Below, piece by piece: positions 56,226-64,000 of a stretch of DNA of 64,000 nucleotides. The DNA is taken from positions 28,173,426-28,237,425 of the forward strand of contig OZ022256.1 of NCBI GenBank assembly GCA_963978905.1, read 5' to 3'. Position 1 is the stretch's first letter. The number at the start of each line of letters is the position of its first letter. The notes under the pieces were generated by a model. It made no database searches. It saw only the letters and a list, made by a program, of their open reading frames with translations, and had not been told where the DNA came from. Made by a program: the position numbers and the translations under genes. The DNA comes from Trichostrongylus colubriformis (Eukaryota; Nematoda; Chromadorea; Rhabditida; Trichostrongylidae).

Positions 56226-56275
56226 AAAACTCTCCGAGTTCTCTCTTCTTGGAACTTCTGCATGTTGTTCAATTT

Positions 56276-56590
56276 TTCGCGTGCTGTTTTGCCAAACGAG
56301 GTTTTTAGGTGGATCAGTTTTAATGCTTGACGTTTCGACCCTTTCGTCGTCTTCAGAGGCCCCGCAATCCACCGCGAGTGGTAGAACGTCACTACCGACT
56401 CGTGTTAGTATGATGAGCGACTATATTACTCTATCACTCTAGTCGCTCTTCATACTAACACGAGTCGGTAGCGACGTCCTACCACTCGCGGTGGATCACG
56501 GAGCCTCCGAAGGCGACGAAAGGGTCGAAACGTCAGGCCATTAACAAAACTGATCTACCTAAAAACCTCGTTCGCAAAACAGCACACGAA
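56276..56590. repeat. Foldback element, ~147-bp arms
   Basis: TTCGCGTGCTGTTTTGC at 56276 pairs with GCAAAACAGCACACGAA ending 56590. Pairing continues inward with some mismatches through GACGTTTCGACCCTTTCGTC and ACCGACTCGTGTTAGTATGA to an 18-nt loop at 56423-56440. Non-coding. Confidence 0.85.
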
Positions 56591-56939
56591 TAAATGTAAC
56601 AGAAGTATGTGGATAACGGAGAAACCCATTTTCCGTGTAAGACTCGTATAATAAGATCCGATCTCCACGATTCTTTTGCAGATTTTCTTGATTCGTTTGT
56701 TGCCATTAGACTACCCAGCATTCGCACTCTTCGTCCGGCCGCAGTCGGCCAATTTCCACCGTTGTCCCCTTCAGAACGCGGGGTAGACTATAACAAACAG
56801 TACAGGAATATTAATACCGAATAGCAACATCACTGGTAGGCTTGGCTCGATACTGCCAGCTCGAACAGTCCCATGCTTGGGTAATTAAACTTGTATTCTC
56901 ATTCTCGTGGTAGCGACATGAGTAAGATTGTGAGGCAAC
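56591..56939. other. Non-coding stretch
   Basis: Nothing recognised. Confidence 0.35.
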
Positions 56940-58499: not shown

Positions 58500-60900
58500 A
58501 AGAAACATACTAGAAAAAACGTCGATATGTGAAAAAATAGATGTACAGAATACCAATTAGAACAAATAAACAAATAAAATAAATTTATAAAAAACAACAT
58601 CGAAAAGACTAGTAATAGGAGTTGTAGATAAGAGTAGACTAGATGCTAAGACTAGAATAGAGAAGACTAGAATAAACAATGTGGAAGAAAAAGTCGAAAG
58701 CTGAATAAAAACGCTTAGAAAAAGTTTTGAATAACCAACTATACCATGAAAGGATGCAAAAATTCAATCAGTAATAGAAAAATTGGATAAAGGAGTGGAT
58801 GAGTTATCAGAAAAGGATTAATAGCAAAAACTGAGAGGAGATTACACAAGGAACAGTAAGGAAAAGTGAAATAGCATAGTAAGGATCGAAAAGATTATGA
58901 AGAAAAATGAGGAACAGGTGTGTAAATAAAATATGAGACACAATAATGACTGAAAGTTATTAACAAAATTGTTGAATGTGTGTCACTGTAAAAACTCACG
59001 TTTGATACTCAGGTACGCTGCCACTAAGCCCTTTTGTGTGCCTGGGGCGCGTTAGCATGTTGTCTGCAATTAGTAACATGATTCGCGCGAATATTATGTG
59101 TGCCAAGTTACACTGTATACTGGGACTTGAAAAAACAGGGTAGGAAAGCTAAATAGTATAAATAATGCTCTACGAGTGAGGGTAGTGCAGCAAAAAACGG
59201 AATTGGGAGTGAACGAAAGATTGCAATTCCAATGAAGTATGATGTGTTAAGTCAAACGTTTCTTCTGTCAAACAAACTAGCAACAAACTTTAAATGTTGT
59301 AATAATTACTGATTAAATTAAGTGTAAAAACCCAAATTCATTCCTATGAATGCATTTAAGGATGTTCTTTCTTTGTATCCATTACATATCCATTACTGTG
59401 TTAGTCATTCCCGTGAGCTTAGCTTCAAATGTATTATTGAAGGAGCAAGTATATGCTATCCTAAGGGTTTCGGTGCAAGTCACTGAAGCTTTGTTGCTGT
59501 TGGAGATGCAAGTATCACACTGAGGGGAAGGATGACTTTGAAGTTGAAATCACAGTTTTATTATAGGATTTGGTGCTAATACTATTATTGTCAAGGTAGT
59601 TGCTGTAAGTTTCAGAAGTACAGGTTTTTTTGTAAACTAAATTATTAAAACTAAAGAAAGTCTTTGTTGATGCCTCTTTCACTGATTATGTATTATTGAC
59701 AAATCATCCATATACTTGTTAGGTATAAATATTTTATTCATTAAACTTGTCCCCTTACATACCTGTTCTGCACAATTGTCCTGTGCGCCAATGCAGGTTG
59801 CATGCGACGCCAATACCGTGCTGCACCGTAGTCGTGAAAATCTTTTTCGAGTAAATCTCAAATAAACGTGAAATAAAGCCGAATAAATCCGACTGCAAAA
59901 ACAGATATACACACAAAAAAACGGAGGCGAGAGAGTGAATTGGACTGAATAAATAACGGTCTCGATTCGCTCAAATACAAAATAATAATAGAAGTCGAGT
60001 TCTTTCCACTCTATACGCACATTGTTGCGGATCCATTTGAGAATCTTAACATGTTAGGTATCGATTGTATTCTACAAATGATTATGGTGATGCTGTGTTG
60101 AAATCCATTGTTGGGTATATGGTTTTTCGGTTCCGTAGTAGTTCCGTGGGACTCTATGTGGGCTGCTATGAGTTGACTCCTAGCTTTCCTTTCATTATTA
60201 GCTTTCGGTCTTTCATTACCTCACATCCATTATTCCATCCATTTATGACGAGCGATAAAGGACCTTTTCTTGGTTTATGTATTGTTTGCAGCTTATTATA
60301 TTTTGTGCATTGATAATTCATGGGTTTATTGCCCGTTTATTCATCGCTTATACTTCAGTCCTTTGTCGTGTGCCTAATTTGGTGCCTTCTTGCTTTCAAT
60401 GTATGCCATCTCACCTTGATCGCCTTGTTCGTCTTTATTACTTTGTTAAGATTCCAGCTACTGTTGTGGTGCCACTACGTACTGTTTTTATAGTCGTTGT
60501 GAAAACGTGATATAAATTTCATGAACTGTCGATTCCCAATTCGATAGTAATAGTTTATTATTATATACATATTAACGGAACAATGAGTGATGTGAAATGA
60601 TGTGAGCATCATATCAAAATACTTACTTCTTATCTGCATCGAAGGGTTAATGGTAGAAATGGGAGAGGAAGAAACATATGGTTAGCCCATGAAAGGGAAG
60701 GGAAGTGGAGGGAAGGGAAAGCTTGTGAAAGGAGCGTTCTATTGCAGTTGTTCCAATACTGGCCGCAATGTGGCCAGAAGTCGAGTAGAACGCAACTAAA
60801 TACCTCTGGAAGCGCAGCAATCGTGGAGTTCTACAAAGCGAGCAACAGAACTTCGTCGCGTGTCCAATATCGAAAAATATGATACAGTAGGTGAGGAATA
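58500..60900. other. AT-rich decayed retroelement sequence
   Basis: About 2.4 kb, AT-rich, with no intact frame. The only clear homology is the RT fragment at 59680-59755. By position it is probably the remains of an older PLE copy lying between the two hammerhead-like loci. Confidence 0.45.
59680..59755 (-). pseudogene. RT motif C fragment of a second PLE copy
   Basis: The minus strand reads SLMNKIFIPNKYMDDLSIIHN and then stops. It aligns with KLMTGKTFIPFRYMDDLLLV of the intact RT at 61.6-64 kb. Both catalytic Asp residues of motif C are kept. Homology ends within a few codons on either side, so this is a short remnant, about 25 codons, of a related RT. Its distance to the hairpin at 58437-58469 (~1.2 kb) resembles the ~1.04 kb between the same motif and hairpin A in the intact copy. 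Confidence 0.75.
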
Positions 60901-60918
60901 TATGTCACATAGTGTTAT

Positions 60919-61001
60919 ATGGTTCGTTTCGCCTCCGACTCAGACGAACCATTGTATGTTGCCAGCCTTTGAGGCTCATCAGTGAGTAAGGCTGGCAACA
61001 T
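60919..61001 (-). ncRNA. Candidate split hammerhead ribozyme in two adjacent hairpins
   Basis: On the minus strand, hairpin A (61001-60956) has a perfect 14-bp stem and an 18-nt loop carrying ACTCA, CUGAUGA and GCCTC. Hairpin B follows after 3 nt (60952-60919): an 8-bp stem, ATGGTTCG with CGAACCAT, whose loop reads UC, TGAGT, CG, GAGGC, GAAA. Across the two loops, ACTCA/TGAGT form stem I, GCCTC/GAGGC form stem II with the usual G10.1-C11.1 pair, and the hairpin B stem plus an A-U pair is stem III. Every invariant core position (CUGAUGA, GAAA, GUC) is present, and cleavage would fall after the C at 60943. Relative to a continuous type III hammerhead, the strand holding stem I, core and stem II has been moved out and presented in its own hairpin. 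It lies ~560 nt 3' of the RT stop, same strand. PLEs are known to carry hammerheads. Activity in this topology is inferred. Confidence 0.6.
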
Positions 61002-61120
61002 CAAATAAATGTGTAAGCGGGTGGTAACCAACATGTTATGAAAAAATGTATGTTAATAGCATACAACATAGGCAAGAAGTATTAAAAGGTTATTATAAAA
61101 AAGGTAAGTTTGCTGTGCTA

Positions 61121-61194
61121 AAAAAAGGTTGATGTAGGTAAAATAGTCTTTTTTGAAAAAGGTTGAGGTAGGTATAATAGTCTTTTTGAAAAAG
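61121..61194. repeat. 33-bp tandem repeat in the PLE 3' region
   Basis: Two and a part copies of a unit reading AAAAAGGTTGAGGTAGGTA then AAATAGTCTTTTT. It lies between the hammerhead candidate and the RT stop. It creates an artificial repetitive open frame on the minus strand and is not a gene. Confidence 0.8.
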
Positions 61195-61560
61195 GCGTGG
61201 GTGCATATGATACTAAGGGAACGCTTTATAAATGGAGCGCATATGTACATTGTCTGCACCCAGGCTTTATTACTGCAGTACTTAAAGTATGGTGAAGAAA
61301 ATAAAAAAGAACCAAGCTTCCCATAATCTTCCTTTCATGTTAGCAATAATCACTGCAAGATAATACTGCTACTTACACACCGCATGCTAAACTTGCAAGA
61401 ACGAAAATAGGGGAAGGTACCACAAGTTAGATGAGGAACTGGAGTAATGTGGAGGATTTAAAAAATAAACTTCCCACTGGGGTCTGACAAAGCGTTACTT
61501 GCCTTCCTTCTTGTTTGGTAATGACTGTTTAGTACTCCATTTAGGAAATTATTAACTTAT

Positions 61561-64000
61561 CTAGCTATTTAGCATATTACTTACTAATTTGGTTATTTTC
61601 CGTGTGTTGTCTGTAAGTCCAAATTTGTAACTGATGTACTTATTATGCATAATACATTTAATGATATGGGTGGTTATGAATTCCAGGCTGTAGTCACTGT
61701 TTATCAAAAACTCTACCATACTTCTTATTTTAGTGGTATATGTATCAAATGTAGAACATGTATTGGCTATTCGTAGTGCTTCTGTATATATAACCGCCCC
61801 TTTATTTTTTAGAGATATGTTACTATTACTATGTGGAAATCTGTTCACTTTGAAATTAAAGTTGTCAGTTTTGTTATATAGCCATGTGAGAACTCTTCCA
61901 TTGTTGATTTCTAATGTTAGGTCGAGATAGTTTGCATAGTGATCGGAAATGTGAGTCTTTTTAAGCTCTAGTTTGTTATCATAAATCCTTCTAAGAATAG
62001 TTTCTACTTCTAGTTCATCAAAATTGTGTACAAGAAGTAAATCATCCATATATCTAAATGGTATGAAAGTCTTACCGGTCATTAATTTAATGGTCTTTGC
62101 GTAATTAAATTCCAAAACTGACAAAGTAAGATCTGCTAATAACGGACTGAAATTGCCACCTTGTGGTACCCCTTCCTTTTGCTTGAAGATATTGTTTCCG
62201 AAAAGGCAGTAGCTGTTATCTAACAAATAGTCCGTTAAATAGAGTAAATCCTCTTTTTTGTAGTATCTATATCCATTTCTTAGCTCTTTGCCATCACTGT
62301 AAAATACATTGAACCCATTAGTGGCGATAAAAGCTTTGTTGGAATTTTTAAAACAGATATTTAGCAGTATTTTCACACTTTCCAATATATGGCTATGTTT
62401 CAAGTTGGTAAACATATCTGTGAAGTCTGCTGTATAAATTTTAATATTTTCGCATCTAATGCTACTTAGATCCTGGCTAATATTAATATTAACTATGGAC
62501 CAGTAAGTTTTGATGGTCCTACTGCGATCTTCAGTAGCTTTTGCATAGTTTTTAAAATGGTTCTTAATGTAAGTGAAGATAACATGTAACTCTTTAGCTA
62601 ACGGTTTAATGCTACTATTAAATGCTCCTGTGATGAATCTAAACTTTATAGGGTTTTTATGTAGTTTAGGGAGGGCATATATATAAGGTAAATCGGCCTC
62701 TATATCAAAAGACAAATTGTTAGCTTGACAGAAAAACTTGTGTTTATTTATGATGCATTCTTTATTTTGTTCTTGTATCAGTTCATATGTATTTTTGGTA
62801 TTTGTATAGTTTAGAATCCTTGTATTTGTTTCATAGTATAAGCCCATTTCCTCCATAAGTGTTAAAAGGTAGTGTTTTTTACAAATAATGCCATAATTAT
62901 TACTAGCTTTATCTAGAGGACAAAAAATAAACATACTTCTGTATTTTTTTACCTGTTCACTTGAAATGTATTCACCTTTACTATCAATATTATCAGCTGT
63001 CAATAGTGGTTTAACTTTACTGTGATAACTGTTATTAATATATTTTATTATAGCTCTTATTTGCTCTTGGTTTAATTTATACCTTTGAATCAAGTATTTA
63101 ATAACTTCATTGGTTAGATCCTCAAATATTTCTTTGACTTCTTTTCTACTGATTCCTTGGTCTAATCTATATTTTGTACCCTTGCTCAATAATTCTTTAA
63201 ATGTTTTTTCTTCTATGATGCTGAGGTCTCCTGTAATTATATGTCCATGGTGCTCATCAATAAATTTTTTATATTTTTCTATCTGACAGATGCAAGTCCT
63301 ACTCAACGTATTTTCAACCTCTTTTATGTCCAGACTTTTTAAAAAGTGGTTATAATTAAATATCTTGCTGGATAACGTGTTTTCATACTTAAACAAAATT
63401 CTTATGGGTACATAATCTTTTTTATTATCATTCTTGCATGCTATCTCCTTAATCAGTGCTGAATTAAATATTTTATTAAATGATATTTTATCAAAAACTC
63501 TACTTTTATAATTTATTGTGATATTATGGTAAATGTTATTTTCTTTTTTGCTCTCTTTATATGTATTAAAATGAAAATGTGCTAATAAACTAAACACAAG
63601 CAACCTGTTTTTATTAGTGATTTCTGTTAAGAAGTCTTCTCTGGTAGAGAGTTTGATAATCTTATCAATTTCAATTCTCCTTAAACTTTTGAGCATTCTG
63701 TAACATTCCATTGGTTCAAGATTCCCTTCCTTTCTGACCAATTCCTGCAGTACCGTATTGTATTCGGTGCTTTTCTTCCTACTTTTGCCTTTGTTGACCC
63801 CTCTGTTATCTCTTTTTTTAGTAATATTTAGCGAAAAGAAGGGGGGATTGTTTTTGAACAGTTGAGTCTTGTTTAAATTAGTGATGTTTCCATATCCTTT
63901 GATGTTGTCATTGAGTCCGAAAGGTAAAGGCGTCATTAGAAGTTTTATCCAAAATAACTCCTTTTCTAAGAGGATGTTTCTATCATTTGTGCTCTCTGAA
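61561..64000 (-). CDS. Penelope-like reverse transcriptase, 5' end outside window
   Basis: An uninterrupted frame ends in TAG at 61561. The first ATG in view is at 63936 (791 codons), but the frame stays open for 21 more codons to the window edge, so the real start lies outside. Residues numbered from that ATG: CPLDKASNNYGIICKKHY (339-356) resembles the PLE upstream block; YALPKLHKNP and FRFITG (420-436) the template-binding region; YTADFTDMFTNL (501-512) motif A with the first catalytic Asp; KEGVPQGGNFSPLLADLTL (587-605) motif B; FRYMDDLLLVHN (627-638) motif C; and RFPHSNSN...KGAVIYTEALRIA (699-724) the PLE-type thumb. There is no C-terminal GIY-YIG nuclease. The visible N-terminus, ELFWIKLLMTPLPFGLND, resembles the end of GIY-YIG domains in permuted PLEs (Naiad/Chlamys type), so a nuclease may lie upstream. 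It would copy element RNA into DNA. No internal stops are seen, so the copy may be young. Confidence 0.9.
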   Translation of the reverse strand, partial: SESTNDRNILLEKELFWIKLLMTPLPFGLNDNIKGYGNITNLNKTQLFKNNPPFFSLNITKKRDNRGVNKGKSRKKSTEYNTVLQELVRKEGNLEPMECYRMLKSLRRIEIDKIIKLSTREDFLTEITNKNRLLVFSLLAHFHFNTYKESKKENNIYHNITINYKSRVFDKISFNKIFNSALIKEIACKNDNKKDYVPIRILFKYENTLSSKIFNYNHFLKSLDIKEVENTLSRTCICQIEKYKKFIDEHHGHIITGDLSIIEEKTFKELLSKGTKYRLDQGISRKEVKEIFEDLTNEVIKYLIQRYKLNQEQIRAIIKYINNSYHSKVKPLLTADNIDSKGEYISSEQVKKYRSMFIFCPLDKASNNYGIICKKHYLLTLMEEMGLYYETNTRILNYTNTKNTYELIQEQNKECIINKHKFFCQANNLSFDIEADLPYIYALPKLHKNPIKFRFITGAFNSSIKPLAKELHVIFTYIKNHFKNYAKATEDRSRTIKTYWSIVNINISQDLSSIRCENIKIYTADFTDMFTNLKHSHILESVKILLNICFKNSNKAFIATNGFNVFYSDGKELRNGYRYYKKEDLLYLTDYLLDNSYCLFGNNIFKQKEGVPQGGNFSPLLADLTLSVLEFNYAKTIKLMTGKTFIPFRYMDDLLLVHNFDELEVETILRRIYDNKLELKKTHISDHYANYLDLTLEINNGRVLTWLYNKTDNFNFKVNRFPHSNSNISLKNKGAVIYTEALRIANTCSTFDTYTTKIRSMVEFLINSDYSLEFITTHIIKCIMHNKYISYKFGLTDNTRKITKLVSNMLNS

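Follow-up and report, generated by a model that had tools for sequence, protein, structure and literature searches.

The type I and small hammerheads of Penelope-like elements (PLEs) carry their conserved blocks in the nested order C-G-S and have a short stem III; C is the CUGANGA strand, G the GAAA strand and S the strand with the cleavage site. These ribozymes were reportedly treated by Cervera and De la Pena in 2014 and by Lunse et al. in 2017. A different arrangement, type-CSG, was described by Eckert, Friedrich, Weinberg and Weinberg in 2023 as a non-circular permutation of the hammerhead (PMC10085705). The portions of that paper open to us present two metagenomic sequences, CSG-1 and CSG-2, both of which cleave in vitro at the expected site, with rates of 0.004 and 0.026 per minute. 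According to the same portions, type-CSG is exclusive to metagenomes, apparently possesses a helix that draws stems I and II together, and has weaker evidence of biological relevance than type-SGC in the view of its discoverers (PMC10085705). Type-SGC (HRIMA-1), as described there, is likewise non-circular, with a short linker between stems I and II and an intervening helix, but it has another block order and comes from metatranscriptomes.

The window analyzed here is a 64,000-nt stretch of the nematode Trichostrongylus colubriformis (GCA_963978905.1, contig OZ022256.1, positions 28,173,426 to 28,237,425). Its minus strand holds a complete hammerhead core of 83 nt (61001–60919) spread over the loops of two hairpins, A and B, that lie 3 nt apart. 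The loop of hairpin A reads ACTCA-CTGATGA-GCCTC and the loop of hairpin B reads C-TGAGT-CG-GAGGC-GAA. Stem I (ACTCA/TGAGT, 5 bp) and stem II (GCCTC/GAGGC, 5 bp) can pair only from loop to loop and cross each other, while stem III (9 bp) closes hairpin B. All conserved hammerhead bases (CUGANGA, GAA-A, U-H at the cleavage site) are in place in the window copy. The original prediction of a core divided between two loops, with stems of 5, 5 and 9 bp and crossing of stems I and II, is thus borne out by the minus-strand sequence.

All parts of the motif lie on the minus strand and are given here in 5′ to 3′ order. The 12-bp outer stem of hairpin A, which we call P0, connects stems I and II at their distal ends; its 5′ arm, assigned from sequence, is ATGTTGCCAGCC (60990–61001) and is followed by a TT spacer. 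The stem I 3′ strand ACTCA (60983–60987), the block C core CTGATGA (60976–60982; from the core pattern and the family A copies described below) and the stem II 5′ strand GCCTC (60971–60975) come next. An AAA spacer then leads to the P0 3′ arm GGCTGGCAACAT (60956–60967; from sequence), and an ACA spacer separates this from the stem III strand that precedes the cleavage site, ATGGTTCGT (60944–60952). The predicted cut follows C17 at 60943, placed by analogy with type-CSG as it is presented in the open portions of PMC10085705, so that the next base is 60942. Beyond it are the stem I 5′ strand TGAGT (60938–60942), a CG spacer, the stem II 3′ strand GAGGC (60931–60935), the block G core GAA, followed by the A of stem III (60928–60930; from sequence), and the second stem III strand ACGAACCAT (60919–60927). 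The strands of stems I, II and III were assigned from pairing and covariation. Small competing helices are present in each hairpin taken alone. In a rough energy estimate, disrupting those inside the two loops takes about 8.3 kcal/mol and the isolated 5-bp duplexes contribute −3.7 and −7.1, so the permuted fold is energetically allowed.

By its block order, C-S-G, the window motif is a type-CSG, non-circularly permuted hammerhead. It resembles CSG-1 and CSG-2 in this order, in the crossing of stems I and II, in the hammerhead core, in the joining helix and in size (transcripts of 77–78 nt vs. 83 nt here); the likeness is drawn from the open portions of the published descriptions rather than base by base. 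We equate P0, whose offset was chosen by pairing, with the helix that joins stems I and II at their distal ends because published type-CSG appears to have one. The claim that this order had no described natural example is outdated, as type-CSG was published in 2023 with in vitro cleavage and two metagenomic examples (PMC10085705). The label “type III-like” is likewise a poor fit to a C-S-G motif in which the stem of hairpin A corresponds to the class’s helix joining stems I and II. Most subscription papers fell outside our literature search, within which a “type-CSG” hammerhead was reported in PMC10085705 only, and two other papers carrying that identifier concerned, by title, structure-alignment software. 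Titles and abstract beginnings in the same search disclosed no PLE described as carrying a permuted hammerhead.

We searched both strands of the window with a descriptor that accepts the three hammerhead blocks in any of their six orders (span of at most 150 nt, G-U pairs permitted, no mismatches). With stems of at least 4 bp, it returned a single site, 61001–60919, at 5/5/9 bp. Among 811 dinucleotide shuffles, there were 40 sites with all stems of at least 4 bp, one with all stems of at least 5 bp in any order, and none at 5/5/9; the enclosing 12-bp helix lies outside the descriptor score. The earlier expectation that nested covariance models would miss the motif held: Rfam at gathering thresholds had no match in the whole window, and at E ≤ 1 it had none in 17 loci, nine of which bear the CSG motif. 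Neither the nested order C-G-S nor a match to RF00163 (type I hammerhead) was found in the window and the loci tested. A genome-wide search for type I hammerheads gave 0 matches, as did its controls, so the genome-wide count is uninformative.

The motif lies downstream of a minus-strand open reading frame (61561–64000, stop codon included) in which Pfam places a GIY-YIG domain ahead of a reverse transcriptase (RT). Followed along the contig, the frame stays open to 64473 in window numbering and spans 970 codons from stop to stop. Within the N-terminal 196 residues, GIY-YIG (PF01541) spans residues 99–178 and scores 29.9 bits (cut-off 22.6), and RVT_1 lies downstream of it (30 bits, cut-off 29.6). 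Homologues bearing PF01541 and/or RVT_1 were found for this frame. The element is Penelope-like, as had been supposed. GIY-YIG before RT is a layout that we take to be that of Naiad-type PLEs; such GIY-YIG-first elements, Naiad and Chlamys, were reportedly described by Craig et al. in 2021. The window element shares this domain order with them, together with an N-terminus that is cysteine-rich by eye.

Between the frame and the ribozyme is the 3′ untranslated region of the element (61002–61560), with 14–18% mismatches among copies where aligned. It contains an imperfect repeat, present three times at a spacing of 33–34 nt (61116–61212). Past the ribozyme, alignments of copies define a 3′ tail (60866–60918) that ends at about 60866. 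The alignment ends of the 39 other scored copies fall in 60861–60867 in 24 cases and at 60854 (1), 60876 (3) and 60909–60916 (11) in the rest. All 18 copies compared at their 3′ flanks (the window copy included) are common up to TTCGAT and diverge thereafter, except that two of them share one flank. Because the copy alignments end near 60866 and the flanks differ past TTCGAT, we put about 50 nt between the end of the ribozyme and the 3′ terminus of the element. The two copies with a common 3′ flank, L016 and L017 (G000:C1:14978280-14986102), are 4.7 kb apart and therefore look duplicated as a segment. The true 5′ end of the element was not found in comparison with three other copies, which stop at 64602, 63624 and 63453. 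Two further features of the window were recorded. A second Penelope-like RT relic (59385–59716, minus strand; IPNKYMDDLSIIHNQ and a TETLRIA stretch) lies downstream of the element in the same orientation, and no CSG motif belonging to it was found within the window. Nested inverted repeats (56270–56596), whose arms measure 99, 34 and 26 nt and enclose a centre of 16 nt, resemble a fold-back element.

The position of the ribozyme permits comparison with known hammerheads of PLEs. Like the type I and small forms, it is a hammerhead core in a PLE terminal region; unlike them, it has the C-S-G order, a 9-bp stem III and P0. It also differs from CSG-1 and CSG-2, which in the open portions of PMC10085705 are two metagenomic sequences with element and host unnamed, in being tied to a retrotransposon 3′ end and in having many candidate relatives in one 331-Mb genome.

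We searched this genome (331 Mb in 52 contigs) for copies. The window element’s own family, family A, comprises at least 40 scored copies of a 121-nt stretch among 261 first-look candidates, and at 29 of the 40 loci RT sequence is present no more than 1.5 kb from the motif. Where aligned, the other 39 copies diverge from the window copy by 2.75% within the ribozyme, as against 12.6% for the 3′ tail, 18.3% immediately upstream and 14.1% over the remaining 3′ untranslated region; the copies were ranked by similarity around the ribozyme, which favours low ribozyme divergence. Their CTGATGA blocks show 10 differences in total, 7 of them at position 7, the free position of the hammerhead core. The core is intact in 35 of the 40 copies and has a harmful-looking change in five (L014, L025, L029, L037 and L040).

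Candidates were also collected with three search patterns, which hold the core constant and vary downstream of GTC. These gave 25, 115 and 169 matches (309 in total) vs. 5, 1 and 0 for backwards controls. The 309 matches include several subfamilies, and some are clearly false, including among the 25. At a relaxed pairing threshold (at least 3/4 pairs in stem I, 3/4 in stem II and 5/7 in stem III), three-stem pairing was seen in 50 of 58 fetched regions for the 115-match pattern (40 picked for variation and 18 spread over the list) and in 18 of 19 evaluated regions, out of 20 picked for variety, for the 169-match pattern. With a looser pattern, none of 72 viral-contig sites passed the same threshold. 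The CSG pattern itself matched viral contigs twice in its strict form and at least 120 times in its loose form, and none of the 82 sites examined had at least 4 bp in both stem I and stem II (one had 3/4/2 bp). A pattern with an altered second stem II pair was discarded, since by inspection none of its 11 matches was a hammerhead (7 were viewed with flanks; 4 had the same or nearly the same letters).

Other subfamilies were compared for coding sequence near the motif. Among L059–L077, RT sequence lies within 1.5 kb at L066 only; this locus represents family D, with a related RT (37–50% identical) upstream of the motif. Family B has a 989-codon open frame that is 41% identical to the window element, a kinship given at locus L118 by a tblastn match of 41% over residues 4–953. 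The L118 frame has no GIY-YIG hit in Pfam at E ≤ 0.1, and its RVT_1 score of 27.3 is below the cut-off of 29.6. At L118 and the adjoining L120 and L121 (G000:C7:44560500-44568900), a partial copy and a full-ORF copy of family B stand in the same orientation and match without difference for at least 1443 nt. The full ORF is bracketed by two motifs separated by 6184 nt, and 51-nt repeats lie between the two copies. We had considered an element flanked by pLTRs here; upstream comparison reduced it to the partial and full-ORF copies in one orientation. Three further family B copies were probed upstream: one starts within the ORF, and the other two are unmatched in that region. One additional site, L281 (G000:C5:34430776-34430953), has the CSG order with stems of 7/8/6 bp and is unlike the other subfamilies in lacking P0.

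The original prediction proposed compensating changes in the two loops as a test, and among copies from the same genome the outcome was positive, with double changes in both stem I and stem II. Stem I, ACTCA/TGAGT in the window, becomes CCCTTA/TAAGGG, ATCA/TGAT, CCCTCA/TGAGGG and ATCTCA/TGAGAT in other subfamilies. P0 also differs on both sides between subfamilies (its offset being the best-pairing choice). Among 18 chosen representatives, 97.7% of 432 cells are paired, 19 of 24 pairs are double-changed and none of 500 shuffles equalled them on any of five measures; controls with slid partners were 33–43% paired. For stems I and II alone, the same rows have 96.9% of 162 cells paired and 6 of 9 pairs double-changed; on four measures none of 500 shuffles did as well, and on the fifth 45 of 500 did. 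These representatives were hand-picked, with P0 at its best offset, and omit rows with weakened stems (L264, L265, L267, L270, L272, L274, L280 and L281, of the 20 regions), so the unselected recount is fairer. It covers the 78 fetched regions, the 40 family A loci and L056 (described below), 119 rows of which 73 are distinct, at fixed stem offsets. Pairing was found in 87.7% of 365 cells for stem I (double changes in 4 of 5 pairs, 51 cells), 92.1% of 292 cells for stem II (2 of 4 pairs, 54 cells) and 88.6% of 511 cells for stem III (5 of 7 pairs, 101 cells). None of 500 shuffles per stem reached these double-change counts (shuffle means of 20, 22 and 45 for stems I, II and III), with the proviso that shuffles ignore kinship and that family A vs. 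family B contributes many cells from few events. The constancy of the core, of the innermost stem II pair and of the two innermost stem III pairs is uninformative because the search patterns fix them.

Outside this genome, an RT profile search found three distant GIY-YIG/RT contigs (L056, L057 and L058) in bacterial metagenome-assembled genomes (MAGs), where they are most likely eukaryotic contamination. L056 (JAAETN010000659.1, filed as a Maribacter MAG) has GIY-YIG before RT and is 31–32% identical to the window element; in Pfam its GIY-YIG is above the cut-off and its RVT_1 score is 21.1, below the cut-off of 29.6. About 1.1 kb further downstream, it carries a type-CSG hammerhead, with the same 5′ to 3′ order of CUGANGA, cleavage site and GAAA as in the window (stems of 4/5/14 bp, P0 of 11 bp, score 34). 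Mononucleotide shuffling of the three contigs (180 shuffles) gave a single match, with a score of 19 vs. 34 for L056. No CSG motif was found in L057 and L058, contigs that may be cut short. Viral contigs searched with the RT protein and the RT alignment yielded no relative.

We consider it very probable that the window motif is a type-CSG hammerhead that would fold in cis and that regularly belongs to the 3′ part of PLEs with GIY-YIG ahead of RT. In the proposed fold, the CUGANGA strand would be presented in loop A, and the cleavage-site and GAAA strands in loop B. Stems I and II would form between the loops, with stem III closing hairpin B and P0 tying stems I and II to each other at their distal ends, and the cut is predicted between C60943 and U60942. 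By analogy with the published RNAs, we infer Mg-dependent self-cleavage of the window motif. More tentatively, read-through RNA from neighbouring copies on the same strand might be cut in the cell, which would set 5′ ends, and cutting may compete with use of the RNA as a template. The compared copies retain about 77 nt past the predicted cut, but they were found via that stretch. Their retention of it suggests that the template RNA is probably uncut at the predicted site, a reading that rests on copies found by matching sequence past the cut. In another PLE, according to the open portions of PMC11167929, insertion in vitro was unaffected by hammerhead mutations, and the substrate was predominantly unprocessed RNA. 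Trimming of read-through RNA from same-strand neighbours would be a likely use of the ribozyme; L118, with a motif to each side of its full ORF, is a locus of this kind.

It is improbable, in our judgment, that the ribozyme works in trans or as a dimer, with loop A of one RNA or copy pairing with loop B of another. The pairing itself does not force a cis arrangement, neighbouring copies on one strand do exist (the two motifs at L118), and small PLE hammerheads that cleave as dimers are the subject of a paper, going by its title. However, hairpins A and B are only 3 nt apart and P0 is kept across subfamilies, so an intramolecular fold fits, and the open portions of PMC10085705 describe the 77–78-nt CSG RNAs as self-cleaving alone.

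We give just as little credence to the idea that the structure is a binding platform for the element’s protein or for the initiation of reverse transcription, with catalysis incidental or lost. The motif does stand about 50 nt from the 3′ end of the element, the compared copies do retain the part beyond the predicted cut, and the open portions of PMC11167929 do describe hammerhead mutants of another PLE with unaffected insertion in vitro. Against this, family A was chosen by similarity and not by core, and 7 of its 10 CUGAUGA differences fall at the free position; a mere platform gives no reason for changes to cluster there.

A nested type I or III hammerhead assembled from successive copies in a tandem array is very unlikely. 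A nested order could arise if the site strand of one copy were combined with the C and G strands of its successor, but the copies examined on their 5′ side are truncated single insertions with different flanks, the stem III arms belong to a single copy, 16 nt from each other, and covary, and the nested Rfam models, as noted, matched none of the 17 loci. Chance resemblance in two unrelated hairpins, for which nothing speaks but the small size of the motif, can be dismissed almost entirely given the dinucleotide shuffles, the covariation of stems I and II, the 0 of 72 in the viral-contig control and the unselected recount.

What is new is the placement of type-CSG near the 3′ end, at a distance of about 50 nt, in a GIY-YIG-first Penelope-like retrotransposon. 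Type-CSG, formerly two environmental sequences, gains many candidate copies, covarying crossing stems and a mobile-element context, and the natural relevance of its permutation becomes a testable question. The subfamily sequences also supply material from which to build an adequate model of a motif that the Rfam models do not match, and the finding raises the question of how a continuous hammerhead turned into a non-circularly permuted one inside retrotransposons. It is a serious possibility, short of an expectation, that type-CSG is the characteristic ribozyme of a deep GIY-YIG-first PLE lineage and that the published CSG sequences are pieces of such elements. If so, a permuted protein and a permuted ribozyme would travel together in GIY-YIG-first PLEs.
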